Virus record (IMG/VR): IMGVR_UViG_3300036466_000177
Coordinates: 1 to 30,350 of that record
Strand: one strand, 5' to 3'
DNA from: a virus
Length of the DNA: 30,350 nucleotides
Both the position numbers and the translations under genes were made by a program. The notes below the pieces were generated by a model. That model was not told the origin of the DNA. It was given only the letters and a program-made list of their open reading frames with translations, and did no database searches. The stretch's first letter is position 1. Every line of letters begins with the position of its first letter. Shown here one piece after another: positions 107-28,060 of the stretch.

Positions 107-1720
107 TTAGTCCCACAAGTATTTGTATCCTTTACATAAAATCCCGCAACCTATATCCCCGTCGCTTCCTCGTGTTCTGATTTTTGAATCAGAGTCAACT
201 TTTAATTCGACCTCTATACTCTCCTGCTGCGGCCCGTAAGTATGGGTTTTCATCCTTAGCGTGTATGCCGTGTCTGATGCTGCCGTGTCGGTCTGTCTCG
301 TCTCTGTTAAAAGACCAAATCTGTTTGAATCGGCGGCACCCGGTATGTCCATCGTTACGTTAAGACTTGCAACAGTGTCAGGAGGCGACACAATCATGGT
401 CTCAACGGCAGAGGTTGACAGGTCAACACTTAAGGCTCGGCAAAGCTGAATCGTGTCCCATACAACCATCCCGCATTCGTCTGCATGAAAGTTGACAATG
501 TTCCCGGCCCCGTCATTAAGCACCCACCCTATCTGCCTGTATAGCGAATATGAAGACGCATCGGAAAGCAGGTTTGTTGCAGAGGCATCAGAATCGAAGC
601 CAGCATCTATCAAAGACAAGTCAGAGGATGAAATAATAAATACCCGGTACCATTCTGGGGCGGTGCGCGTAAATACCGCTGTCCCGTCCGTTACCGTCGC
701 CGATGCTGCTGCGTATCCTGACGGCTGCGAAGAAGCGGAAGTTCCAGCGGTGGTGCATTCCCACCACCAAGGTGAAGAAGTTACTTTAATCAAATCGCCA
801 AGGCTGTAAGCCGTTGAATTTGCCCTGTCGGCTACGCTCGTCTCTAGCGTCAAACCTGACGGGAACCCGCCAGCGTCCGTTCCTTCGGACCATGCTGCGT
901 CAATCTGTTTTGTCAAGCCGGTCGCTAAAGTTATAATCGCCTGGTTTGTGCTGTCACGGCATGCGCCCGCAGATATGTCTATATCGTGGGATGCGTCGGT
1001 CCCGTTCGCAATATTTAATCCATAGTGTGATGCGCCAAGCATTACGCTTGCTGCGTTTAGGCTTGCAGGAGTTACAGCTGCGGCAGTGTCTTCCCCTGCT
1101 TGTGTATCCGCGTCGGTAGCGAACCTCATCACCCCTTTAAGGACGCTTGTCGCATCGGCGTCGATCTTTTCCAAAGTCACTGCGCCTTTGGCAAGTTTCT
1201 CCGTTACAATTGAGCCGTTTTCAACTATGGTATATTGTGGCGTTTCGTTTGTCACAGCATCCCCGGTTTCGTTCCACCCGAGGACTTTCCCCGCCTCGGG
1301 ATGCGGCAGGTCGGTATTCGCTCCGGAAGTATCGGAATCGGGGAGCTTAAACGACACGCCGACTTGTCGGGACAGTTGTTGTATCTGCATAACGATCCGG
1401 TCAAGCTCTTGCTCAAGAGTGTCCGGCCTAAAACCGTCTCCTTGTATCAAGTCAAGCCGTTGCGTGTAATCAACGTCCCGCACGACAATCAATTTCCCGT
1501 CGCTGTATGTTGCAACCGTAGTAAGCTCACCGCCACTTTCACTGCCCGCTCCCGTTAGGGTATAATCGGTTGTGAGCGTCAGAGGACCTGAAATGTCACC
1601 GGCTGCATCTTCACGATAGACCGTCAAATCTGAGTCTTGGAGGAAATAAAAAGGGATGGTATAAACCGTCCCCCCTGTGCAAACGAAAATTTGCTTGCTT
1701 GTCTCGTTGGATAGTGCCAT
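107..1720 (-). CDS. Tail fibre protein with T7-type N-terminus
   Basis: A 537-residue protein that should form the receptor-binding fibre on the tail. Residues 1-120 resemble the T7 tail-fibre N-terminal domain, which anchors the fibre to the tail tube: they begin with a cell-adhesion-like strand-rich part and end with the helical motif MQIQQLSRQVGVS (about 111-123). Residues 196-221 match the short repeat found in phage fibres (GVMRFAT...AVTPASL). The remaining 300 residues, the likely receptor-binding part, I do not recognise; they contain Trp- and Ser-rich strands and end in CKGYKYLWD. The ATG overlaps the stop of the upstream giant gene (TAATG), so the two are probably co-translated. I see no C-type lectin variable region and no template repeat, so there is no sign of a diversity-generating retroelement here. 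Confidence 0.85.
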   Translation of the reverse strand: MALSNETSKQIFVCTGGTVYTIPFYFLQDSDLTVYREDAAGDISGPLTLTTDYTLTGAGSESGGELTTVATYSDGKLIVVRDVDYTQRLDLIQGDGFRPDTLEQELDRIVMQIQQLSRQVGVSFKLPDSDTSGANTDLPHPEAGKVLGWNETGDAVTNETPQYTIVENGSIVTEKLAKGAVTLEKIDADATSVLKGVMRFATDADTQAGEDTAAAVTPASLNAASVMLGASHYGLNIANGTDASHDIDISAGACRDSTNQAIITLATGLTKQIDAAWSEGTDAGGFPSGLTLETSVADRANSTAYSLGDLIKVTSSPWWWECTTAGTSASSQPSGYAAASATVTDGTAVFTRTAPEWYRVFIISSSDLSLIDAGFDSDASATNLLSDASSYSLYRQIGWVLNDGAGNIVNFHADECGMVVWDTIQLCRALSVDLSTSAVETMIVSPPDTVASLNVTMDIPGAADSNRFGLLTETRQTDTAASDTAYTLRMKTHTYGPQQESIEVELKVDSDSKIRTRGSDGDIGCGILCKGYKYLWD

Positions 1721-4700
1721 TATTCACCCTTCCGCTTTGGGAATATGAGATTGACGGCTGTTCCATCGCCGCTTTCAACCTGGTCATAGCCTTTTTTAAG
1801 CCGCTTATATACCTGCGATACTGGGACGCCAGTGGCGTAGCTCCCAATTTCAGAAAGGCCGAAAATAACCTTTCCGGCATCTTCGGAGCTGAACTCGCCA
1901 GCAAACATATTAGCCGCCGCGTCAACCGAATCCTCGCCAAGTCTTGACACAATGTTCACAAATTCAAGCGCCGGGGTCGATACCGCGTCACCGTATCCGT
2001 CCCCGAGCGAATACCCAACAACGTCACGTACAACCGGGAACCCCTGCACGTTGTGACCAACAATTTCCTTGGCGATTTCTTCAGGTTCGGGTGGCTCCCC
2101 TGTGCGCAAGTAAGCAAGCAGCACCAGCGGGGCGACAGGCTGTGCCACACACACCAAAAACATTTTCGTCATAAACTCGTGTAGAGGCATCTTCCCAGCG
2201 CGAAAGGCCGCGACATATGCCCTCTGTACGTTCCCGAAGTTACCAGCAAAGCCGAAAAACGGCGTAATCAGACGGCCAATACCAGCTAGCCCCTCTGTGG
2301 ATCGCTGCATGTGGGACAGTTCGAGTTCATTACCGGCAGGCTGCAACGTCCTGATTTTCAGGTCTGCGGCAGATATGGCCTGTTCAATGTCGCCGCCGTT
2401 TCTCGCCATTTCGCCCTTGAACGTTCCAAGCCATGATGGTAGAAAAACCATCGAATCTGCCGCTATGATTCCGAAGTACCCGGCCGAAACCAGATCTTCG
2501 TGCGAATAGCCTAAAATCTCCTTTTCCGGCGCAAACTTATACATCTTGCGCTTAAAGTCTTTGTCATACTGCGTATATCTAGAACGCATGTATGCCGACA
2601 ATTTAAGCACAGCATCATATGAGTCTTTTGGGTTCTTGAAAAACGCCAAATAGCCGATAGCTAAGTCAACCTTATTGACCTCGGCCAAGGCCATGAAAAA
2701 CCCGCCGAAGTTTTTTACCGCCGTGACCACGTTCCAAGCCATGTAAAACGCCGAACTTTTTTTCATGGCGCTGTCAAGGGTTCGGTCCCACCTAGAACCG
2801 CCAGATTTTTCAGGCCTAATGATATGCTTTAACGATGGCCTGATTAAGCGGTAAAGCTCGTTCCCTAAAACCCTTGACGCTTCGTTCCGGTAGGTCTTGT
2901 GTTGAGTTACCCTGTCAACGTCCCGCACAGCTTGTGCCAGATAGATAAACCGCAACACGTCTTCAAGGTGTTCACTTAAAACCGACATTGACAGCTTGAC
3001 CGGAAGCCCTGCCCCATTTGCGGTACGCTGTTTGGAGAACCCGCTTTTGGCCGATGGCGTCTGAAACACAGCCTCTTGTCGAGAAAGCATGTCGCTTTTT
3101 TCGTCCCATAATCCCGCCATGAAAGACAAACTGCCGTCATACCGGATCGGGAAATAGCCACCAGGGTGTTCTATCTCTGTCCCGTCATTCGCTCTGACCA
3201 TGATCGGTCGAGCGTGAACTTTTTTCATGCGGGAGTGTTTTATTTTCAAGTGAACGCTGTCTGCCTGCGGAAATAGAGAATCGACAGAATCTAATATCCC
3301 CCTTATCGCGGCCCAATCATCCACGGACAAAATGCTCGTCAACTCGACAATCTGATCTTCCGACATGGGCACACCATCGATGGTGAACCCAGACGATACC
3401 CTTTGCATGTTGTCTGCGGTGCCAATGTTCAGCGCCATCATGACAACATTTTCAAACGTCCATTGCCGGTTGTCGGCTTTGTAACAGTCGGGAACCGGAA
3501 CGGATGTCTTTATCTCGTTGCCGTTCTTTTTCCAAGACGTTATCAGTTGCGTCAGGTGAGGCTGAATTTTCTTCCCCATATCCTCTTTTGCCACGTACAA
3601 GGCATCAAGAGCTTTCGCAAGCCGCCCCCATAGCTCCCTGACGTTCACCCCATCTTTGCTTTTTTTGGAAACCCCATCCCATCCGTCCATTTGCCGAAAT
3701 ATCCACAAGGGCAGCTTTGTAGAAGCAAAATACGATTCTTTAACGTCTTGGATTTTCCGAGACAAGGAACCGTATCGGGATATTTTTTTCCCTTTCATCT
3801 TTGCCGTTTCGACAACCGCTTTCTCGGCAAGGGATGCAATCGATGTTTTCTCGTCGGACAGCAAGCCTTTTTTTATTTCCCGTCCGCGCCCGACAAGGAA
3901 TTTCAACAGGTCGTCCAGTTCTTGAATTTCGCCCCAGGTCATTTCCGATGTGGCGCGGTCGTCTGTTTTCAGGTTTTCCGATATAAACGGGGCCCCAATC
4001 GAGGTTATTTCATCGACGTTTGCATTTAAATCGTCAATGAACTTCGACAGCGAAGGGGTGTCTTCATTTACGTCCAGCCTCCGCGAAACCATTTGATTTC
4101 TAAGCATAAGCTGGTTGATCTGCTGCCGGTATTCATAGGCAACGTCCGATTTCACGGCCCGTTTCCATCTGGTTTGCATCTTGCGGTAAGCTTCGTTGGC
4201 GCGGTAGTGCGCGGCAATGAGCGCCTCGTTCATTCTGGCTTTTTCGTTTAAGTCGAAAGCCTTTGTCCAGTCTCCCGCTTTGACCGCCTTGATAACCTGT
4301 TGGCGGAGTTTCCGCGACGTGGTGAGAATCTTACTGATCCTTATGGCGTCTCCGACCTTTTGCGCGTCGGTGGTCTGGTCGGCCCAAATGCGTAGAGCCT
4401 TGCGCGCCAAAGCCGCCCTTCCCGCCGCTTCCTTACGCGCCAGCCACTTGCTTTCAAGCTCCATCTGCTTGCGTGATTGCGCGGTGCGTATGGCTTCTTC
4501 CGTGGTCAATTCCTGATCGTGTTCGATTTCCAACTGTGCCACTCGCTGTTCAATCCACTGCTGCCGCGTTTTTGCCTTGGTCATCGCGTCCACGAATTCA
4601 CGCGCCGATTCATACCCGGCTTCAATGGCCGCATGTTCGATATCGAGCCCGTCTTTTTTAAATAGCCCTTTGACACTTGGCAAGTTTATCTTGCCGAACA

Positions 4701-7700
4701 GCCGCACTACGCTGGCCTTGTCGATGCCTCCTTTCTCTACCAGCATATCCATAGCCTTGTAAACAGGCTCTTGCTTTATTTCTTCCTTGGCTTGTGCGCG
4801 GTATGCCTTGAGTCGTTCATCCAACTTGCCTACGCGCTGTTTGTCTTTCTTTTCTGTAGCCTCTGCGTTTTCGGACGCGCTGCGGTATTCTTTGATTTCC
4901 GCGTTGGTCGCTCCCGCCTCTTTTAAAAACTTCTCGTCGAGGATAGCGATCTGAGCCGCAAGTTCTCGCGCTTGTTGAATCTCCTCTTCTGTGGCAACCA
5001 GCCGGTCAAACACCCTTCGCAGGTCGTCGTTTATTTCTACCTGCAAGGCGTCGGCGGTGCGGTAAATCTTCACCAGCCACGACTTGAACTGACGGAACGC
5101 GGCACGCAATCCGGCAACGGGGGCTTCCCCTTCGCGCAAGTATGCCTCAAAGCCTCGCGCAAATTGTTCATGCTGTTCGCGTGTCAGTTCGCCGTCAGAG
5201 CCAAGCCATTCCTTGATAGCGTTCCATTCGTCAACCTGCACGCCGTATTTGCCCGCGACGTATTTTAGATCGTTCAGGAACAGATGTCCCATTTCATGCA
5301 GGAAGGTGGACAGGTTTGCGCTCTCGAAAAGCGTGATAAGCGTTTTCCCGTCGCCGGTAAGTATTGCACCACGGGGGGCGGTGTCGGTGCGGAAGAACGT
5401 ACCTTGTCCTCCACCCTGATAAAGATGGTCTTCTCCAACCTTCTCGGCGACGGAGTTATCAAAAAGCATAGCCCCGTTGCTGGTCTTTATCCCAACTATC
5501 TCGTTCGGCTCTATGACGTTTTCATAAATCCATTCATCAAATTGGCCGCGATTCCAGTCCCACATATCGGCACTGTCAACAATATCGGCAGGGTCCAGTG
5601 CCGCGACAAAATCATCAACGCTTAACTCTTCGACGGAAGCCGGGAGCCTGCCTTTCTCTTCATCCGCAAGATAAGCATCGCGTGCGAGTTCTTGGAACTC
5701 CGCAACCGGCATCAGCCTACTTATGGGTACGCGCCACGCAGTATCGCCAAAATGCGAGATAGCGTCCTGGTCATCGGCCCACTGCGACCATTCATCTTCG
5801 TTCAGGGTTTCGCCCTTGAATCGGTAGACATATTCTTTTTTGCTTTGCTGAAACTGCACCTGCCCCAACTGGTGAAGCTCGGCAAACTCGTCAAAATTCT
5901 GCCGCTGAATGGTGATGCCGAATCGTTTTAGATGTTCCGCCGCTTCAATTCCGGTCAGCTTCGCCAAGACGTTGGCGCGGGCGATGATCGGCATAATGCT
6001 GTACGAGGCGTTGTCACCCTTCACCCCTGCGTCTTCTAGCTGGGCCTTAAGGTCGGCTTCAATTTGATCTACCATGTCAGGAGAAATTAGACGCCGTTGC
6101 TCTTCATCGTACAGCTCTTTAATCCGGACGTTCGCGGCACTTTCGGCTTGCACATCGGCCTCGGCTGCGTTAACCGTGGTTTCCTCTGCGCTGATACTCA
6201 GATCGTTCTGGAATAACGTCATGGCTTGGTCGGTACCGACGCCCGCAACAACCTTCCCGAAGTCCATTTCTACTGCGCCACCGGTTTGTAACGCCGTGAT
6301 AAGCTCGGTTCGGCTTACACCATACTGCTCCGCCCATGTCGTTACTTCCTGCTGAGTCATGCCCTGTTCATCGACCAGCGTTTCAATGATGCGGTCTGAT
6401 TGAAGATATATCTTCTCCACGCCGTTTTTCCGCCCAACGCGGCTCATGAATTCGGCAAACGCTTCTGGCGACCGCTCCTTCAACCGCGACGCCTCGGCGG
6501 ATGAGGCAACATCAACCATCTTGTTTTTCCGAACCTCCGCTTCCGTCTTGGCTTTGTGAGCGGCTTGGATGTCTCCGGCAAGGGTAACGCCACCTCCAGC
6601 CATGCCGAGCACCGCCATGCCTTTCCCGACCTTTGCGGCCACCTGTTGCAACTGCTCCATAGTCGCGGGGTCTTTGATCGTCTGCACAATGCCCTGGTCC
6701 TGCAACACCCCGCTGACGACAATGTTAGTCAATTCCTGCGCCATTTCGGTCGTAACTTCGCCGGTCCACGCCATTGCGTAGTTTTTGGCGAAATCGAAAA
6801 ACGCTTTGCGAATTGTCGGGTTGGAAAGCACCAAGCCCTTAACGCCGTTCGACATAACTTTTCGCAACCCAGGAATGACTTTCGCCAGAGCCGAAAAGCC
6901 GACCGTTTCTAGGGTGGCGTTGGCGACACCGACAAGCTCGGCGGCTACGGCGGCTGTTTTGTCGTCTATCTGGTTGCCTTCGCCGTCCTGCAAGGTGCGA
7001 AACTCGCGGAACGCCTGCCCCGCTTCCACGTCGTGCGCATGCTCGAAATACCCAACGCGGAGACCTATCCCAGCACCAGCCAAGGCCCCGGCAGGGGCGG
7101 TAATCGGTGCGGCAATCTCTCCGGTAGGTGCTGCGGCCACAGCTCCGGCACCGGCACCTGTTATAGCACCGGTCAAGCCGCGTTCCATAACTTTAGGCGA
7201 CTTCATCGACTCGAACATTTGGCCGACAAGCTCAGACGCTGCCGGGATGAATGATGACAGGCCCGTATCTGTGGTCTCATAATTGCTGGCCGCGTCGAGC
7301 TTGGCGAGGTATTCAAGCTGATCGGGAGGTAAGTCTTTGCCCTGCAATATGAGCCGCCGCCGTTGTTCCCACAGCACCCCGCCCCGGTCCATTGCTTGTC
7401 CGGAAATGAATTCGCGGTATGTGTCGGTGCCCTTGACGAAACCAGGAACGAGAGACGAAGAAAGCCCCTCAATGTTCTTCACGGCCTCCGCGTTTACAGC
7501 TTCCTGCTGCTGCTTTTTCAAAGCGGATGTCTTTTCCTCAATGGTGGCGAGGTTCTCAAGATCGTCCTGTGCCAGCGACATGAACCATGCATCTCTCGTC
7601 TGCCCTACAAGCACGGGGGCGCGGTCCCGCAACTTGTCGAAATCAGGCATATTTGCCGCCCTGCGAGCAACGTCAAGGTTGTCCTTGACAGCTTTTTGAG

Positions 7701-7860
7701 ACACCCCTAGCTTAGATGATAAATTGTAAAGCTCTGCCGCCTCATCGGGGCTACGGTCGGCCTGCTTATACGCCTGTTGCGGGGTTGGCGGCTTTTCGAC
7801 CGTTTCCCAATTTTCGTGCTTCTTCTCGGACCATGTGCCGTCTGCGCGCAAAATTTCCAT
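1720..7860 (-). CDS. Giant virion/ejection protein, polyvalent type, with HExxH motif
   Basis: A 2046-residue protein in the position of T7 gp16, the internal virion protein that is ejected into the host and helps DNA cross the envelope; T7 gp16 is about 1300 residues, so this one is much longer. Residues 228-271 are a Gly/Ala-rich hydrophobic stretch that could enter a membrane. HEMGH at 855-859, followed by FARGFEAYL near 900-908, fits a zinc metallopeptidase (HExxH with a downstream Glu) as seen in phage polyvalent proteins. Residues 1000-1350 are highly charged and helical. The last 400 residues, with a mixed hydrophobic part (FGFAGNFGNVQRAY and a membrane-like segment after it), resemble the large polyvalent-protein-associated domain LPD38; that assignment is from memory of the family. 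I saw no lytic transglycosylase motif. The gene starts divergently from a plus-strand gene, so its transcripts must cross that gene or begin in the short gap. Confidence 0.8.
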   Translation of the reverse strand: MEILRADGTWSEKKHENWETVEKPPTPQQAYKQADRSPDEAAELYNLSSKLGVSQKAVKDNLDVARRAANMPDFDKLRDRAPVLVGQTRDAWFMSLAQDDLENLATIEEKTSALKKQQQEAVNAEAVKNIEGLSSSLVPGFVKGTDTYREFISGQAMDRGGVLWEQRRRLILQGKDLPPDQLEYLAKLDAASNYETTDTGLSSFIPAASELVGQMFESMKSPKVMERGLTGAITGAGAGAVAAAPTGEIAAPITAPAGALAGAGIGLRVGYFEHAHDVEAGQAFREFRTLQDGEGNQIDDKTAAVAAELVGVANATLETVGFSALAKVIPGLRKVMSNGVKGLVLSNPTIRKAFFDFAKNYAMAWTGEVTTEMAQELTNIVVSGVLQDQGIVQTIKDPATMEQLQQVAAKVGKGMAVLGMAGGGVTLAGDIQAAHKAKTEAEVRKNKMVDVASSAEASRLKERSPEAFAEFMSRVGRKNGVEKIYLQSDRIIETLVDEQGMTQQEVTTWAEQYGVSRTELITALQTGGAVEMDFGKVVAGVGTDQAMTLFQNDLSISAEETTVNAAEADVQAESAANVRIKELYDEEQRRLISPDMVDQIEADLKAQLEDAGVKGDNASYSIMPIIARANVLAKLTGIEAAEHLKRFGITIQRQNFDEFAELHQLGQVQFQQSKKEYVYRFKGETLNEDEWSQWADDQDAISHFGDTAWRVPISRLMPVAEFQELARDAYLADEEKGRLPASVEELSVDDFVAALDPADIVDSADMWDWNRGQFDEWIYENVIEPNEIVGIKTSNGAMLFDNSVAEKVGEDHLYQGGGQGTFFRTDTAPRGAILTGDGKTLITLFESANLSTFLHEMGHLFLNDLKYVAGKYGVQVDEWNAIKEWLGSDGELTREQHEQFARGFEAYLREGEAPVAGLRAAFRQFKSWLVKIYRTADALQVEINDDLRRVFDRLVATEEEIQQARELAAQIAILDEKFLKEAGATNAEIKEYRSASENAEATEKKDKQRVGKLDERLKAYRAQAKEEIKQEPVYKAMDMLVEKGGIDKASVVRLFGKINLPSVKGLFKKDGLDIEHAAIEAGYESAREFVDAMTKAKTRQQWIEQRVAQLEIEHDQELTTEEAIRTAQSRKQMELESKWLARKEAAGRAALARKALRIWADQTTDAQKVGDAIRISKILTTSRKLRQQVIKAVKAGDWTKAFDLNEKARMNEALIAAHYRANEAYRKMQTRWKRAVKSDVAYEYRQQINQLMLRNQMVSRRLDVNEDTPSLSKFIDDLNANVDEITSIGAPFISENLKTDDRATSEMTWGEIQELDDLLKFLVGRGREIKKGLLSDEKTSIASLAEKAVVETAKMKGKKISRYGSLSRKIQDVKESYFASTKLPLWIFRQMDGWDGVSKKSKDGVNVRELWGRLAKALDALYVAKEDMGKKIQPHLTQLITSWKKNGNEIKTSVPVPDCYKADNRQWTFENVVMMALNIGTADNMQRVSSGFTIDGVPMSEDQIVELTSILSVDDWAAIRGILDSVDSLFPQADSVHLKIKHSRMKKVHARPIMVRANDGTEIEHPGGYFPIRYDGSLSFMAGLWDEKSDMLSRQEAVFQTPSAKSGFSKQRTANGAGLPVKLSMSVLSEHLEDVLRFIYLAQAVRDVDRVTQHKTYRNEASRVLGNELYRLIRPSLKHIIRPEKSGGSRWDRTLDSAMKKSSAFYMAWNVVTAVKNFGGFFMALAEVNKVDLAIGYLAFFKNPKDSYDAVLKLSAYMRSRYTQYDKDFKRKMYKFAPEKEILGYSHEDLVSAGYFGIIAADSMVFLPSWLGTFKGEMARNGGDIEQAISAADLKIRTLQPAGNELELSHMQRSTEGLAGIGRLITPFFGFAGNFGNVQRAYVAAFRAGKMPLHEFMTKMFLVCVAQPVAPLVLLAYLRTGEPPEPEEIAKEIVGHNVQGFPVVRDVVGYSLGDGYGDAVSTPALEFVNIVSRLGEDSVDAAANMFAGEFSSEDAGKVIFGLSEIGSYATGVPVSQVYKRLKKGYDQVESGDGTAVNLIFPKRKGE

Positions 7861-20759: not shown

Positions 20760-20918
20760 ATGACCGCAACTTTCGAAGCAAACGGGAAAGCATGGAAGAC
20801 TGACGAAGACACCCTCAACATTATGCGCGAATATAGAAACAGTGGTAACAGCTATATGGTAGCCGCTGTCTTCGAAATAGGCGTTGCTTGCGGCAGGATC
20901 GTCCAGGTGGCACAATGA
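20760..20918 (+). CDS. Unknown small protein, first gene of control cassette 1
   Basis: A 52-residue protein (MTATFEANGKAWKTDEDTLN...). Residues 15-50 have the spacing of a small helix-turn-helix or Myb-like DNA-binding fold: an acidic helix, 'YRNSGNSYMVAAVFEIGVACGRI', then a last helix. This is suggestive only. A GGGGGG run before the ATG gives a fair ribosome-binding site. The stop overlaps the ATG of the helix-turn-helix gene (ATGA), so the two form a coupled pair behind promoter P1. Confidence 0.6.
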   Translation: MTATFEANGKAWKTDEDTLNIMREYRNSGNSYMVAAVFEIGVACGRIVQVAQ

Positions 20919-21115
20919 CCCCAACAGCCCTCAAAGACTCCCTCAAGGCTCTCGGCTGGTCGCAATCGCGGCTGGCCGTGGCCCTAGGGGTAACGAAAAC
21001 CACAGTTAGCAGGTGGGCGACAGGCCAAATACCCATTCCTCAGTATGCCGTTGCTTACCTTGCCCTAGCCATGAAAGTTAAAGAATTTTCCGGCGATTGC
21101 TTGCAGCCCCATTAA
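20915..21115 (+). CDS. Cro/XRE-type helix-turn-helix regulator 1
   Basis: A 66-residue DNA-binding protein. Residues 5-48 form the helix-turn-helix: LKDSLKALGWSQSRLAVALG, then VTKTTVSRWATG with the recognition helix near 27-36, then 'PIPQYAVAYLALAM'. This ending, Gly-x-x-Pro-Ile-Pro, is typical of small phage regulators of this group. It lacks any C-terminal dimer or protease domain, so it would act like Cro rather than CI. The ATG at 20915 overlaps the previous stop. Its last codons lie in the stem of the terminator. It probably controls P1 and perhaps P2 and the divergent late promoter. Confidence 0.8.
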   Translation: MTPTALKDSLKALGWSQSRLAVALGVTKTTVSRWATGQIPIPQYAVAYLALAMKVKEFSGDCLQPH

Positions 21116-21546: not shown

Positions 21547-21728
21547 TGTTTCGTATTCAGGACAAAGAGAACGTCTTGCTTAACTCTGAAAAAGTCACGG
21601 CCTATAAAATCTTTGAAAAAATAGAAGGGGACACTGGCTTTCTTTACATTGGAACTGGATATTGCCAAGGTTGGGATTGTAGTGACGCACAATGTATCAG
21701 AGATTGGGCTGAACGTGAGGATGAATAA
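21543..21728 (+). CDS. Unknown small protein of control cassette 2
   Basis: A 61-residue acidic protein (MMFRIQDKENVLLNSEKVTA...). The N-terminal half is beta-like, followed by 'GYCQGWDCSDAQCIRDWAERE' with three Cys residues (C43, C48, C53). No family is recognised. It overlaps both neighbours (ATGA before, TAATG after), which makes real translation likely. Confidence 0.6.
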   Translation: MMFRIQDKENVLLNSEKVTAYKIFEKIEGDTGFLYIGTGYCQGWDCSDAQCIRDWAEREDE

Positions 21729-21901
21729 TGACTCCACAAGAATTCAAACAGGCTCAACTCCGGTTGGGTCTCACAAACCAGGCATTAGCCGACACTCTCA
21801 AGGTTTCCCTCCGTGCCGTCGAAATGTGGCGGCAGGGGGCTAGGCCAATTCCTGGTCCGGTAGAAGTTGCGATTAATCTAATGCTTAATCAGCCCCGCTA
21901 G
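21728..21901 (+). CDS. Cro/XRE-type helix-turn-helix regulator 2
   Basis: A 57-residue protein and the paralogue of regulator 1: both begin MTP, share LG at the end of helix 1, LA-x-x-L-x-V in the turn, a Trp after the recognition helix and the ending G-x-x-P-I-P. Helix 2 is NQALADTLKV (17-26) and the recognition helix VSLRAVEMWRQG (26-37). It is shorter than its partner and has no other domain. Its ATG overlaps the previous stop (TAATG), and its last codons lie in the terminator stem, just as for regulator 1. Confidence 0.8.
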   Translation: MTPQEFKQAQLRLGLTNQALADTLKVSLRAVEMWRQGARPIPGPVEVAINLMLNQPR

Positions 21902-24329: not shown

Positions 24330-24654
24330 TCCTAGCCTCCTTACCGTCATGCTCGATGCACAGCAGGAGTTTATCCAGGCTGTCCACATAAAGACGGTCC
24401 TCGCCTAAAATAGCGGCCATCGGAGATGATCCCATGCCACACTCCCAGCAATACCAATCGAGCCAATGGCTATCATCGTTGACCAGTTTCGCGAGGCTGT
24501 CTGTGTACAGCTCAAACATATGCCAAATGGGGCCCCACAACGGGCTATCGCATTTTGATTCTGTGAGTTGGCAAAATGAATCATAGTTTTTTTGCAACGC
24601 CCTGTACGCCGCCTCCCATCGTTTTAGTTGTACTATTTTTTGTTCAGTTGTCAT
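24316..24654 (-). CDS. Unknown early protein following the helicase
   Basis: A 112-residue helical protein rich in Trp (about eight) with CWEC at 69-72. It resembles phage accessory proteins of unknown function that come after DnaB-type helicases, but I cannot name the family. The ATG overlaps the helicase stop (ATGA), so it is co-translated with the helicase and may help it. Confidence 0.6.
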   Translation of the reverse strand: MTTEQKIVQLKRWEAAYRALQKNYDSFCQLTESKCDSPLWGPIWHMFELYTDSLAKLVNDDSHWLDWYCWECGMGSSPMAAILGEDRLYVDSLDKLLLCIEHDGKEARNGRA

Positions 24655-25934
24655 CTCGCCTCCCTGAATGTCGTATGTTCCCCGATATATTCACAATTCA
24701 CAGTCCCGACCGGGCCACCTCTGTGCTTGCCGATAATAATCTGCGCCTTGCGTCTGTGGTTTTTCTCGCACTCTGCAACGCCCTTGCAATCACAATAAAT
24801 GGCCTCCCGATAGCAAAACATAATCACGTCGGCGTCCTGCTCTAATGCCCCCGACTCTCTCAGATCAGCCATTTTCGGGCGTTTGTCGTCGCGGTTTTCC
24901 AAACCCCTGTTAAGCTGGCAAAGGGCGATGACAGGCGCTTCGATTTCCTTGCTCAACAGCTTTAATTGACGGCTTGCGTCCGTAACAATGTCATACCGCG
25001 TCCCGGTCCCGTCGATCAGTTGCAGGTAGTCTACGATAACGGCCCCTATCCCATGCTTGCGTTTTATCTGCTTGGCGCGTGAGCGGATTTCTGAGGCCGT
25101 CAATACCGGCGTATCGTCTATCCACAGTTGACTTTTGTGCAATCTGTCTGCCGCATCGTTGAGCTTTGAAAAGTCGGCACCTTCAAGCATCCCAAACCGC
25201 ATTTTCCCGTTGTCAATTTTACCCTCGGAGGATAAGGCGCGTTCGCCTAATTCCGCTTCGTCCATTTCCATGCTAAACAGCAACGCAGGCTTGCCGCTCT
25301 TCCCAACGTGCCGCGCTATATCCATTGCCAAGGCCGTCTTCCCCATCCCTGGACGCCCGGCAACAATGTAAAACTTGCTAGGCTGGATTCCACCAAGCAT
25401 TCGGTCAAGCGGTGTTAAGCCCGTCGGCGCTCCTGGTATTTGCCCCTTATGTTCCCTTCGCGCCTCAAGCACATTCAGAGCTTTTAAAAGGGCCTCGCTT
25501 ATTTTTTTCGGGCCCCCTTCGGATTTTCCGCGAATGCCGTCTATCGTCGCTTCGATCTTTTCCAGAATTTCGGCAACTGGCATCTTATCCGCGTTTTGCT
25601 GTATAGCTTCGGCAATACCGCGAATCTTTCGACGCTGGCTTTTCTCCCGAACCTGCTTGACGTAATAGCCGACATTGACGGCGGTCGGGGAAAACTCCAT
25701 AAGCTCGTTTAGATACGTGACACCGCCGACCTCTTGTAGTTTTTTTATACGCACAAGTTCGTTTGTAAGGGCGACAAGCTCCGGCTTAATCCCTTGGCAA
25801 TGGAGGTCAAGCATAACGCGGTAAATCTCGCGGTGTGCTCCGGTAAAATCGTCGGCGGCTAGATTGATACGGTCAAGAGCTTCGTCGGGATCAAGGCAGA
25901 TCGCGCCGAGTATGGCTTTTTCGTTATCCAGCAT
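24651..25934 (-). CDS. dnaB: DnaB-type replicative helicase
   Basis: A 427-residue hexameric DNA helicase that unwinds DNA ahead of the fork. It has the helical N-terminal domain (1-100), a linker (about 101-165) and the RecA-like motor: Walker A GRPGMGKT (193-200), SMEMDEAELGER (221-232), Walker B AVIVDYLQLI (298-307), the 'ALCQLNRGLENR' sensor (337-348) and 'LRESGALEQDADVI' (358-371). Between 374 and 390 there is an unusual Cys-rich loop (CYREAIYCDCKGVAEC). I start at 25934, with GGGAGG 3 bases before the ATG; it overlaps the initiator gene by 11 bases. Standard length for phage DnaB is 430-470. Confidence 0.92.
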   Translation of the reverse strand: MLDNEKAILGAICLDPDEALDRINLAADDFTGAHREIYRVMLDLHCQGIKPELVALTNELVRIKKLQEVGGVTYLNELMEFSPTAVNVGYYVKQVREKSQRRKIRGIAEAIQQNADKMPVAEILEKIEATIDGIRGKSEGGPKKISEALLKALNVLEARREHKGQIPGAPTGLTPLDRMLGGIQPSKFYIVAGRPGMGKTALAMDIARHVGKSGKPALLFSMEMDEAELGERALSSEGKIDNGKMRFGMLEGADFSKLNDAADRLHKSQLWIDDTPVLTASEIRSRAKQIKRKHGIGAVIVDYLQLIDGTGTRYDIVTDASRQLKLLSKEIEAPVIALCQLNRGLENRDDKRPKMADLRESGALEQDADVIMFCYREAIYCDCKGVAECEKNHRRKAQIIIGKHRGGPVGTVNCEYIGEHTTFREAR

Positions 25935-26853
25935 TGGCCTCCCTTTCCCTTGCAAGCCTTTCTAGCTCAATGACGTGCGGCGGCTTATATCCGTCAAGCT
26001 GGCTTTTAGGGGTTTCGTAGATACCTCCGCTTGGCGGTTTCTTACCGTGGCTTATCTCTTTGCCGCTTAACAGGGCTTCCAGTTTTTCGACGATGTTGCG
26101 CTGCCGGTATTTCTGAATGTCGCCGCCGTGATAGTTGTAAACCGCGATGATATCTTTGACGGTCTTGCCTTTAGCCAGCAAATCACGAAACAAACCAAGG
26201 GGGGGCATGGAGTTAAGGCCGCAAGTGGTAAGGTGCAAGTTTTTCAAATCGGCAATGCTCCCCCCACTATTAGGTGTAGGTATAGGAGTAGGAGAAGGCA
26301 TAGGAGTAGGAGTAGGAGTAGGAGTAGGAGTAGGAGTAGGAGTAGGAGTAGGAGTAGGGCCGGGGCTTGTAGCATCACTTAAGCCCCCCTTAAGTAGTGC
26401 TTGAGTAGCCCTTAACTTGTCCTTTGAGGATGTTATAAGCCCGTACTCCTCTTTACTTATCCCAACCCTTCCCGCTTCTGTCAAAAGTTCGTAAACGTCT
26501 TTGTTCGTACTCTTCATCCTGTTAAGACGCCCCTTGTCGGCCCTGTCTTCTGATGATGCAACCCAGGAGTTTGTTTCTGCCCAATCATGAAGACACGCTT
26601 TCTCGCCAGTCATGTCAATGAAATGAAGTTCACAAATTGAGTCAAAAAACTTACCCTCTTCTCCTTGCCACTTCGCTGCGATTTCTATGTCTTCCTTGTC
26701 AAGGCCGGTAAGTTCGCCGGATGGCCTATTTTGTGCGGCCCATTCCCACAGGCGAAGCAACGAGACAACACCTTCAAGGCCGCAGCGTCTTTGCAATTTT
26801 ATTGTTTTAGGATGATCGAAAAAACCAATTGCAATACGGATGTCGCTATTCAT
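25924..26853 (-). CDS. Replication initiator / helicase-loader-like protein with Thr-Pro linker
   Basis: A 309-residue protein. Residues 1-100 (IGFFDHPKTIKLQRRCGLEG, then LLRLWEWAAQNRPSGELTG) are the winged-helix type N-terminus found in phage replisome organisers and DnaD-like proteins. Residues 165-194 are an extended Pro-Thr repeat encoded by a perfect hexamer tract. Residues 200-309 form a second helical domain, likely for DNA or helicase binding. Its place directly before dnaB with an 11-base overlap supports a role in origin recognition and helicase loading. I start at 26853 (AAGGAGG about 10 bases before), since the longer frame upstream runs through an RNA terminator. Confidence 0.78.
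   Translation of the reverse strand: MNSDIRIAIGFFDHPKTIKLQRRCGLEGVVSLLRLWEWAAQNRPSGELTGLDKEDIEIAAKWQGEEGKFFDSICELHFIDMTGEKACLHDWAETNSWVASSEDRADKGRLNRMKSTNKDVYELLTEAGRVGISKEEYGLITSSKDKLRATQALLKGGLSDATSPGPTPTPTPTPTPTPTPTPTPMPSPTPIPTPNSGGSIADLKNLHLTTCGLNSMPPLGLFRDLLAKGKTVKDIIAVYNYHGGDIQKYRQRNIVEKLEALLSGKEISHGKKPPSGGIYETPKSQLDGYKPPHVIELERLAREREANAG
26301..26357 (-). repeat. Hexamer tandem repeat (TAGGAG)n within the initiator gene
   Basis: About 9.5 perfect copies of TAGGAG on the plus strand, with degenerate copies out to 26272. Read in the gene it encodes alternating Pro and Thr. The unit length of six keeps the frame, so slippage would change linker length without breaking the gene. Confidence 0.95.
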
Positions 26854-26879: not shown

Positions 26880-27050
26880 TCAGAGTTTGTTTACGATGGT
26901 CGCAAGCTTCACGCTTACCGGCCAAGGAAGATGGTTTAAAATGCACACGAATAATCTTATAAAAAAGCCCCGCCACATTTGGCCTTTGTCGCAACTGTCG
27001 AGGAAGCAACTCAGGTTAACCAAACATGACGGGGCTATCGTGACCGGCAA
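26880..27050 (-). CDS. Possible leader peptide in the structured leader
   Basis: A 56-residue frame starting with TTG (27050), with GGAGG 5 bases before it. It runs through the pairing segments and the terminator of the leader RNA and stops just before the initiator gene. If translated, ribosomes would melt the terminator, which would be a means of control. The protein itself (MPVTIAPSCLVNLSCFLDSC...) looks like no known family. The TTG start and its location make this a weak call. Confidence 0.25.
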   Translation of the reverse strand: MPVTIAPSCLVNLSCFLDSCDKGQMWRGFFIRLFVCILNHLPWPVSVKLATIVNKL

Positions 27051-27115
27051 TTAAACCTCCGGCATTCTTACCCTTATATGTAGGCGACAAAAACCTGAAT
27101 TGCTACTTCCTCGAC
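26960..27115 (-). ncRNA. Structured 155-nt leader / small RNA before the initiator gene
   Basis: The transcript would start at about 27115, set by the promoter at 27150-27122, and end at the terminator at 26961. Its first 24 bases (A, 27115-27092) are complementary to 26997-27017 (A'): 9 bp, a 3-base bulge, then 12 bp with one G-U. TTTGTCGC (B, 27091-27084) is complementary to 26985-26992 (B'). The terminator arms T (27036-27020) and T' (26966-26982) pair over 17 bp. The order is A-B-T-A'-B'-T', so the three pairings cross and cannot all form as simple hairpins. This suggests an attenuator or switch in front of the replication genes, or a terminated regulatory RNA. Confidence 0.65.
26961..27036 (-). 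terminator. Long-stem terminator before the replication initiator gene
   Basis: A 17-bp stem with several G-U pairs: AGCCCCG plus ten more bases (27036-27020) with the matching arm ending CGGGGCT (26982-26966), then TTTTTT (26966-26961). The loop is 37 bases and holds the A' and B' pairing segments of the leader. Confidence 0.8.
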
Positions 27116-27121
27116 CCTTTC

Positions 27122-27150
27122 AAGTTACCAGAATCACCCCGCTTTGTCAA
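27122..27150 (-). promoter_or_regulatory. Sigma70 promoter with extended -10 for the structured leader
   Basis: TTGACA (27150-27145), a 17-base spacer, and TAACTT (27127-27122) preceded by TGG. The -35 box overlaps the last codons of the gene ending at 27134. The predicted start, about 27115, is the first base of the long pairing arm of the leader RNA. Confidence 0.7.
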
Positions 27151-27481
27151 GATGCTGCTTACGCTTGCCGCCTCCAGCCCACACCTGGAATTCTTTGCAC
27201 TCGCGGCATGTAGACATGCAGAACGCAAACAGTTTAGCGTGGCATCTATGACACGGCGGAAGGTCGTCGTGCCACTTGTAAACCCTCGCCATATTGCGGT
27301 GGATAATCCTGTCTTCCTCGGCCCATAACCCTTTGATGATCGCCGCCTTTTGTTCGGAGCAGGAAAACCCTTCGTGGCGCATAAGGTCGGCCATCTCTCC
27401 GGGGCCTGCGGGGTCTATCGCGCCGCTTAACACTCGTTTTATCATGCGGTAGTGGTGCTTGCGCTGGTTGTCCGATGCCAT
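27134..27481 (-). CDS. Unknown early protein with zinc-binding C-terminal part
   Basis: A 115-residue basic protein (MASDNQRKHHYRMIKRVLSG...). The helical N-terminal half is followed by CHRCHAKLF with CMSTCREC (about 77-95), two paired-Cys sets that should form a zinc finger. The ATG at 27481 follows AAGGAGG by 6 bases. It begins inside the helicase remnant, which runs past it in another frame. Function unknown; the replication context suggests DNA binding. Confidence 0.6.
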   Translation of the reverse strand: MASDNQRKHHYRMIKRVLSGAIDPAGPGEMADLMRHEGFSCSEQKAAIIKGLWAEEDRIIHRNMARVYKWHDDLPPCHRCHAKLFAFCMSTCRECKEFQVWAGGGKRKQHLDKAG

Positions 27482-27621
27482 GTGCCCCTCCTTATGCAAT
27501 AACTTTTAAGAACAATGTCCTGCTGGAAGTCGAAAAGCATATCATTTAGCGGTGGCAGGCTAGATAGACCTGTTGGCCGATCAACAACGGACTTTTTGTG
27601 TAGGAAATTTTGATAGTTCAC
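27442..27621 (-). pseudogene. Remnant of a phage DEAD/SNF2-type helicase, N-terminal piece only
   Basis: A 59-codon frame with GTG start. Residues 2-46 (YQNFLHKKSVVDRPTGLSSL, then NDMLFDFQQDIV) match what I know as the extreme N-terminus of phage DEAD/SNF2-type helicases, where 'LFDFQ..iV.wAlrrGraa.f.d.GLGKT' follows. Here the match stops at 'IRRG', and the Walker A part is missing. The frame then continues out of phase through the start of the next gene. It seems to be the stump left by a deletion that joined the start of the helicase gene to the gene at 27481. It could also have become a small gene of its own, as GGAG lies before the GTG. Confidence 0.5.
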
Positions 27622-27637
27622 TTCTCCATCTCCTATC

Positions 27638-28060
27638 TCAAAACGGTATAGAGTCGGAATCATCAAACGGCGGCTCCTGATACCCACCGCCACCGCCTGT
27701 TCCGCTTCCGTGCTGGCTGCGTGAGGCGTTTTCTTGCCTCTGCCCTTGTCCTTGGTTGCGTGGGCCATAATCGACGCGGGAAGCCTTTAATTCTGTGCGG
27801 TACTTGTCTTGCCCATCCTGCCCTTGCCACTTGCGCGTTTTCATTCGGCCCTCAACAACGACGTAGCTACCGACTTGCAAATACTTGTTCATGTTTTCTG
27901 CCTGCTTGTCCCAGATTTCACACTGGAACCACTCGGTGTGATCCTTGTCGAAACCTTCTGTTACGCCGACGGAGAAGTTGCAAACAGCTTTACCTTGCGG
28001 CGTGTAGCGCAATTCCATTTTGCCGATGTTGCCAGTAATAACTATCCGTTGGAATCCCAT
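27638..28060 (-). CDS. ssb: Single-stranded DNA-binding protein
   Basis: A 140-residue SSB that coats single strands at the fork. The OB fold covers residues 1-105, with the typical start MGFQRIVITGNIGKMELRYT, 'FSVGVTEGF' and 'WFQCEIWDKQAENMNKYL' (44-61), 'GSYVVVEGRM' (63-72). A Gly/Gln-rich linker (about 106-130) leads to the acidic tip DDSDSIPF, which binds partner proteins in bacterial SSBs. The length is shorter than E. coli SSB (178) but usual for phages. The gene lies 28 bases after the preceding early gene. Confidence 0.92.
   Translation of the reverse strand: MGFQRIVITGNIGKMELRYTPQGKAVCNFSVGVTEGFDKDHTEWFQCEIWDKQAENMNKYLQVGSYVVVEGRMKTRKWQGQDGQDKYRTELKASRVDYGPRNQGQGQRQENASRSQHGSGTGGGGGYQEPPFDDSDSIPF

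Follow-up and report, generated by a model that had tools for sequence, protein, structure and literature searches.

The DNA analysed here, called the window throughout, is a viral record of 30,350 bp in which the virion genes are podovirus-like and the replication block lies on the minus strand. Relatives of its terminase, at 55-65% identity, come from Desulfovibrio, Halodesulfovibrio and others, and suggest that the host may be a sulfate reducer. The replication block includes ssb, a 119-aa gene (g121), a replication initiator gene and a dnaB-type helicase gene, and the subject of this report is the leader that lies between g121 and the initiator gene. The features of this region are as follows.

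27638-28060, minus strand: ssb, part of the replication block
27134-27493, minus strand: g121, the 119-aa gene upstream of the leader, its 3' end overlapping the -35 hexamer
27122-27150, minus strand: predicted promoter, TTGACA (27150-27145), 17 nt, TAACTT (27127-27122), with a TG one base upstream of the -10 hexamer
27115-27092, minus strand: segment A, with which the predicted RNA begins; forms the 5' strand of A:A'
27095-27084, minus strand: segment B, overlapping the 3' end of A, pairs with B'
27036-27018, minus strand: segment T, terminator 5' arm, pairs with T'
27017-26997, minus strand: segment A', within the loop of T:T' and abutting T (0 nt), pairs with A
26992-26981, minus strand: segment B', overlapping the start of T' by 4 nt, pairs with B
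26961-26984, minus strand: segment T' (26984-26966), terminator 3' arm, pairs with T, and its U tract
25924-26853, minus strand: replication initiator gene, 309 aa, directly behind the leader (phrog_9474, replication initiation protein, E 5e-11)
24651-25937, minus strand: dnaB-type replicative helicase, the next gene of the operon (PF03796, E 2.5e-87; PF00772)

Elsewhere on the minus strand, positions 1720-7860 encode a 2046-aa virion-type protein with the large polyvalent protein associated domain LPD22. Small genes on the plus strand (20888-21115 and 21728-21901) oppose the rest of the genome, and one of them has a clear HTH domain. In a 44.6-kb relative (G004), a TnpB-type OrfB_IS605 gene sits between structural genes (L188, 1547-2677). 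No integrase family was detected in the phage records searched, which are fragments, and lysogenic immunity is therefore not an obvious use for the leader.

The preliminary description had proposed that a good promoter places the RNA start exactly at the first base of segment A. The position is as described, since the conventional start from the predicted promoter is 27115, but to call the promoter good is to overrate it somewhat: its -10 hexamer matches the consensus at only 3 of 6 positions, and a strict consensus promoter scan of the window lists no promoter at the leader. Related phages carry TAAATT and TAGATT as the -10 hexamer at the same place, and in all three leader types compared below no other promoter within 500 nt scores as high as that of the leader. 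In the window and the relative L006 the predicted start coincides with the first base of A; in L010 it is two bases inside A.

Segments A, B and T had been described as complementary to A', B' and T' in the same order, and all of these complementarities are present on the minus strand. In the window, T:T' consists of 19 pairs (with 4 wobbles among the 18 paired by duplexfold), A:A' of 21-22 pairs around a bulge of 2-3 nt on the A side, and B:B' of 12 pairs including wobbles. The assignment of T:T' as a terminator also agrees with its sequence, which resembles an intrinsic terminator with a U tract after T', and the loop that it encloses is long (33 nt). The best stem in 400 dinucleotide shuffles of the region always scored below A:A' (32) and T:T' (39.5), while a stem equal to B:B' arose in 1% of them; the crossing arrangement, A, T, A' and then T' with its U tract, was found in 0 of 2000 shuffles.

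Relatives were collected by a terminase search, and a search with g121 added one more. Three leader types could be compared, two of which are partly alike (77%): that of the window, that of L006, and that shared by L010, L011 and L045. L006 is 99% identical to the window in g121 and 99.8% in DnaB. Its initiator (2871-3758), a Lin1244_N protein, has only the last ~50 residues in common with the initiator of the window, and these residues adjoin the nearly identical dnaB. Inside the initiator gene of the window (26260-26360) there is a run of Thr-Pro units, appearing on the plus strand as a GGAGTA-type hexanucleotide repeat, which is likely to be a length-variable linker between the N-terminal initiator domain and the C-terminus common to L006. 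In L010, L011 and L045, g121 is 95-97% identical and the initiator is of the HTH_36/Phg_2220_C kind (4195-4893 in L010); the DnaB of L010 is only 39% identical to that of the window, and its likeness to the window stops at the promoter, just ahead of A. At 95-99% identity in the relatives, g121 represents the conserved flank of this boundary. Every leader type directly precedes a replication initiator gene followed by dnaB, and the initiator differs with the type, so that three different initiator genes follow this kind of leader at one and the same position in phages that are otherwise closely related.

The arrangement of A:A' and T:T' is kept in both of the other leader types, L006 and L010/L045. 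The preliminary description had pointed to relatives that keep the terminator and lose A:A' or B:B' as evidence against its reading, and had suggested a test for covariation; both of these leader types retain A:A', and compensating changes are present in A:A' as well as in T:T'. Segment A of L010 (GGTGTCTAGGTCAACATTCTCAGGGTTT) is not evidently similar to A of the window; its pairing energy is -38 kcal/mol with the A' of L010 and -16 with that of the window. Across the whole cross-table the cognate partner is preferred, with cognate A:A' pairings at -32 to -38 kcal/mol and non-cognate pairings at -8 to -27. Over the three types, 55 of the 55 T:T' pairs are standard, with two-sided changes at 9, 6 and 8 pairs in the three comparisons. 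A covariance model built from the window and L006 with the A:A' structure only, L010 and L045 having been left out of its training, detects the L010/L045 leaders at 28-29 bits (E about 2e-5 in 0.54 Mb). In L045 (3360-3380), T' is one G shorter than in L010 (4146-4170), which changes T:T' from -33.5 to -26.4 kcal/mol and leaves A:A' the same; it is a natural terminator variant. The third pairing stands only in part. B:B' is non-random in the window and L006 (shuffle fractions of 0.004 and 0 of 500), between which a G-C pair is replaced by A-U (GTCGC/GCGAC, GTCAC/GTGAC), but in L010 it is at chance level and cannot be considered a general feature of the leader.

The geometry is similar in the three leader types. 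In the window, L006 and L010, respectively, the spacer from A to T (L1) is 55, 61 and 48 nt, the gap from T to A' (L2) is 0, 1 and 0 nt and the distance from A' to T' (L3) is 12, 12 and 9 nt. A:A' is made up of 21-24 pairs and carries a bulge of 2-3 nt on the A strand, and T:T' has 16-18 pairs, or 17-19 when end wobbles are counted. The two helices have no nucleotides in common, and both the A, T, A', T' order and these lengths would suit an H-type pseudoknot. With a simple A-form model, 55-60 Å must be spanned in the window and L006, where the 12-nt L3 reaches 78 Å; the 24-bp helix of L010 requires about 66 Å, and its 9-nt L3 reaches 60-65 Å. According to this model the two helices could possibly form together in the window and L006, and in L010 only as a strained, marginal structure. 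It had been claimed that at least two of the structures must exclude each other or form a knotted fold. Competition or a knot are indeed the alternatives, but exclusion is not forced, as a coaxial pseudoknot fits two of the three types; since both helices can in principle coexist there, A:A' need not prevent termination.

We also folded growing transcripts, using programs that cannot represent the crossing fold and that therefore describe only nested states. In these calculations A:A' is paired with a probability of 0.90-0.98 by 120-125 nt, ahead of the synthesis of T' at about 131-139 nt, and after T' has been made A:A' stays dominant, with T:T' reaching at most 0.1. For L006 and L010, A:A' is a much better final state than T:T'. 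For the window, the energies of the two nested states are almost the same, -54 to -55 kcal/mol, and the inclusion of upstream sequence tips the balance toward T:T'; this shift is confined to the window and absent in the relatives, and the idea that transcripts begun further upstream favour termination was rejected.

A signal that might act on the leader was sought in several ways. No plus-strand promoter-like site, as would be needed for an antisense RNA, occurs at a conserved place in the three leader types; the window and L006 have one moderate site each, with starts in T' and in the spacer, respectively, and L010 has no site of comparable strength inside the leader. Outside the leader, a second copy of A or A' is present neither in the window nor in the 44.6-kb relative. 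Candidate targets for trans pairing elsewhere in the phage proved to be just terminator-like U tracts and chance matches of 11-13 nt, and were rejected. The segment following A might sequester the 3' half of T, but the pairing between the two is weak and not conserved (shuffle fractions 0.07, 0.05 and 0.81). The possible leader peptide that had been suggested across this region is not upheld, as no start codon or reading frame is common to the three leader types; the ATG of the window at 27065, which is preceded by a Shine-Dalgarno-like AAGGG, encodes just four residues (MPEV).

The arrangement seems to belong to this group of phages. In a scan of 2.05 Mb of related phage and prophage DNA it was found in this group only, true cases scoring 64.5-77, the next best 59.5 and the shuffled controls at most 59. 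A strict leader pattern run over IMG/VR recovered only the known relatives. DNA similarity to any of the three leaders was not found among GenBank phages, nor was similarity to the window leader found among PLSDB plasmids. Other candidates were discarded: the exact T pattern matched viral contigs twice, both times within an unrelated sequence; single-sequence searches with the initiators returned the known relatives, or weak ones that have no such leader; and the covariance model gave three weak matches (E 0.01-0.05) in 348 genomes of the order around a Halodesulfovibrio relative, which do not have the arrangement and were judged to be due to chance.

As a whole, these results establish by sequence the pairings, their compensating changes, their geometry, the position of the promoter and the gene context. 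They bear out the proposal of a promoter-proximal leader ahead of a replication initiator operon, and the retention of both pairings in relatives whose sequence has changed makes a genuine on/off switch of phage replication very probable. Beyond this we infer that transcription terminates at T:T' in vivo, that readthrough goes with the pairing of A:A' and that there is a trans signal. We give about an even chance to the leader being a transcription attenuator of the replication operon, that is, of the initiator gene and then dnaB. The RNA would start at A. As A' emerges it would pair with A, forming a hairpin of 21-24 bp before T' exists and holding T in the loop, and with A:A' formed the RNA polymerase would tend to read through into the initiator gene. 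Were a complementary RNA, a bound factor or refolding to take A away, A' would stay single-stranded, T:T' could pair and transcription would end at the U tract, about 155 nt from its start. This would cap the synthesis of the initiator, and self-recognition specific to each leader type is plausible. Because the searches for a conserved antisense promoter, a conserved leader peptide and a second copy were negative, the candidates for removing A are the leader RNA itself, a protein or refolding. Attenuation is the most economical account because it fits the position of the leader, the gene context and the order of synthesis. The absence of common nucleotides between A:A' and T:T', unlike the situation in classical attenuators, speaks against it, as do the small number of independent leader types (three, two of them partly alike), the geometry that could let both helices form at once, the near-equality of the two nested states in the window, the long loop of the terminator, and the negative searches for a conserved antisense promoter and for a complementary partner elsewhere in the window or G004. 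In a more elaborate form, which we regard as unlikely, the terminated leader of ~155 nt would itself be a trans-acting, self-recognising RNA, whose A or A' captures its partner on new leaders of the same phage type and forces termination. A phage would in this manner meter its own initiator and shut off infecting phage of the same type, the A:A' recognition code would be changed by swaps of leader-initiator cassettes and the terminator would work inside the pseudoknot.

Other explanations must be weighed against attenuation. The leader may instead end as a pseudoknotted terminator or stable RNA, in which A:A' and T:T' are coaxially stacked across the junction of 0-1 nt to give a compact molecule of ~155 nt with both ends buried. 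Such an RNA would act as a durable small RNA (a decoy, or in immunity or copy control), with the L1 loop of 48-61 nt exposed. That T abuts A' without overlap in all three types is consistent with this idea, as are the beginning of the RNA at a helix, the conserved lengths of L1 and L3 (48-61 and 9-12 nt), which a mutually exclusive switch would not need, and the adequate reach of L3 over A:A' in the window and L006. However, L3 of L010 is marginal for its 24-bp helix, the sequence of L1 is poorly conserved and the search for targets in the phage found none, and we hold this explanation to be unlikely. It is less probable still that an opposite-strand counter-transcript binds A and drives termination, in the manner of pT181 and pIP501. 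The gene context and the logic are those of plasmid rep attenuators (PMC5703833, PMC4878617), and the moderate plus-strand sites in or next to the leaders of the window and L006 might supply such a transcript, but these sites lie at differing places, T' in one case and the spacer in the other, and L010 has none comparable inside its leader.

A further possibility is that T:T' is a plain terminator for the upstream genes, and that A and A' form a DNA inverted repeat serving as an initiator binding site or origin. A and A' do differ between phages with different initiators, and origins commonly have inverted repeats close to an initiator gene. Yet G-U wobbles make up 14 of the 52 T:T' pairs and 2 of the 67 A:A' pairs over the three types, and since such pairs form only in the sense RNA, selection appears to act on that RNA and not on DNA palindromes. 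Moreover, A of the window and of L006 are alike over their first 11-12 bases despite unrelated initiators, in all types the predicted +1 lies at the start of A or within 2 nt of it and T is abutted by A', and the helix is bulged. These observations render the DNA repeat quite improbable. Ribosome-mediated attenuation through a leader peptide is disfavoured to the point of being barely credible, for MPEV, despite its Shine-Dalgarno-like sequence, is only four residues long and L010 has no equivalent frame.

Comparison with known systems sheds some light on what is new in this leader. In pT181 a pre-emptor captures the terminator's 5' arm by pairing, except when an antisense RNA is bound, and pIP501 is similar (PMC5703833, PMC4878617). 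Like pT181 repC and pIP501 repR, the present system has a long leader before an initiator gene, a terminator just before the gene that is of intrinsic type judging from its letters and, if it is an attenuator, an earlier segment whose pairing prevents the terminator. Unlike theirs, in which the pre-emptor pairs with the terminator 5' arm and the signal is an opposite-strand antisense RNA, here A pairs with the loop segment A' beside the arm and there is no conserved antisense promoter. A scan of the pT181, pAMbeta1 rep, P4 and N15 leaders did not find the crossing layout. In the satellite phage P4, transcription of the replication genes ends prematurely when the CI RNA, a processing product of the leader, pairs with seqA and seqC (PMC4825925). 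The immunity of P4 and of phiR73 is thus alike in that termination within an untranslated leader blocks the replication genes by means of pairing inside the leader (PMC4825925); the CI segment pairs with both seqA and seqC, whereas here A and A' have one strong partner each. In P1, P7, N15 and phiR73, too, a small RNA is known to be complementary to gene leaders (PMC7567579), and the C4 antisense RNA of P1 and P7 (RF01695, with its c4-a1b1 target) is likewise a phage RNA complementary to gene leaders (PMC7567579, PMC2864571). The RF01695 covariance model gave no match to the leader at the gathering score or at E up to 10. The operon under C4 control is that of an antirepressor, not of an initiator. 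More generally, no family of Rfam 15 matched at or above its gathering score. Plasmid initiator leaders with pseudoknots, such as that of IncI repZ, control translation; the likeness is in a pseudoknot-capable initiator leader, but here the second helix with its U tract is terminator-like.

If it is an attenuator, the leader would therefore resemble pT181/pIP501 and P4 in its logic, while it appears to lack defining features for which we looked. A pre-emptor that sequesters the arm is not clearly present, an antisense promoter is not found at a conserved place, and a seqA/seqB/seqC triplet and a C4 match are absent; by these features it does not appear to belong to the pT181, P4 or C4 classes, and provisionally its layout is new with respect to the open-access literature searched. 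In that literature, control of an initiator by leader attenuation is classical in plasmids and in satellite P4, and no example was found in an ordinary tailed phage whose terminator is knotted. Should A:A' govern termination by trapping T from the loop side, this would be an attenuator of a different design, built on two helices that share nothing, and the three natural leader types would provide ready-made orthogonal variants of it.
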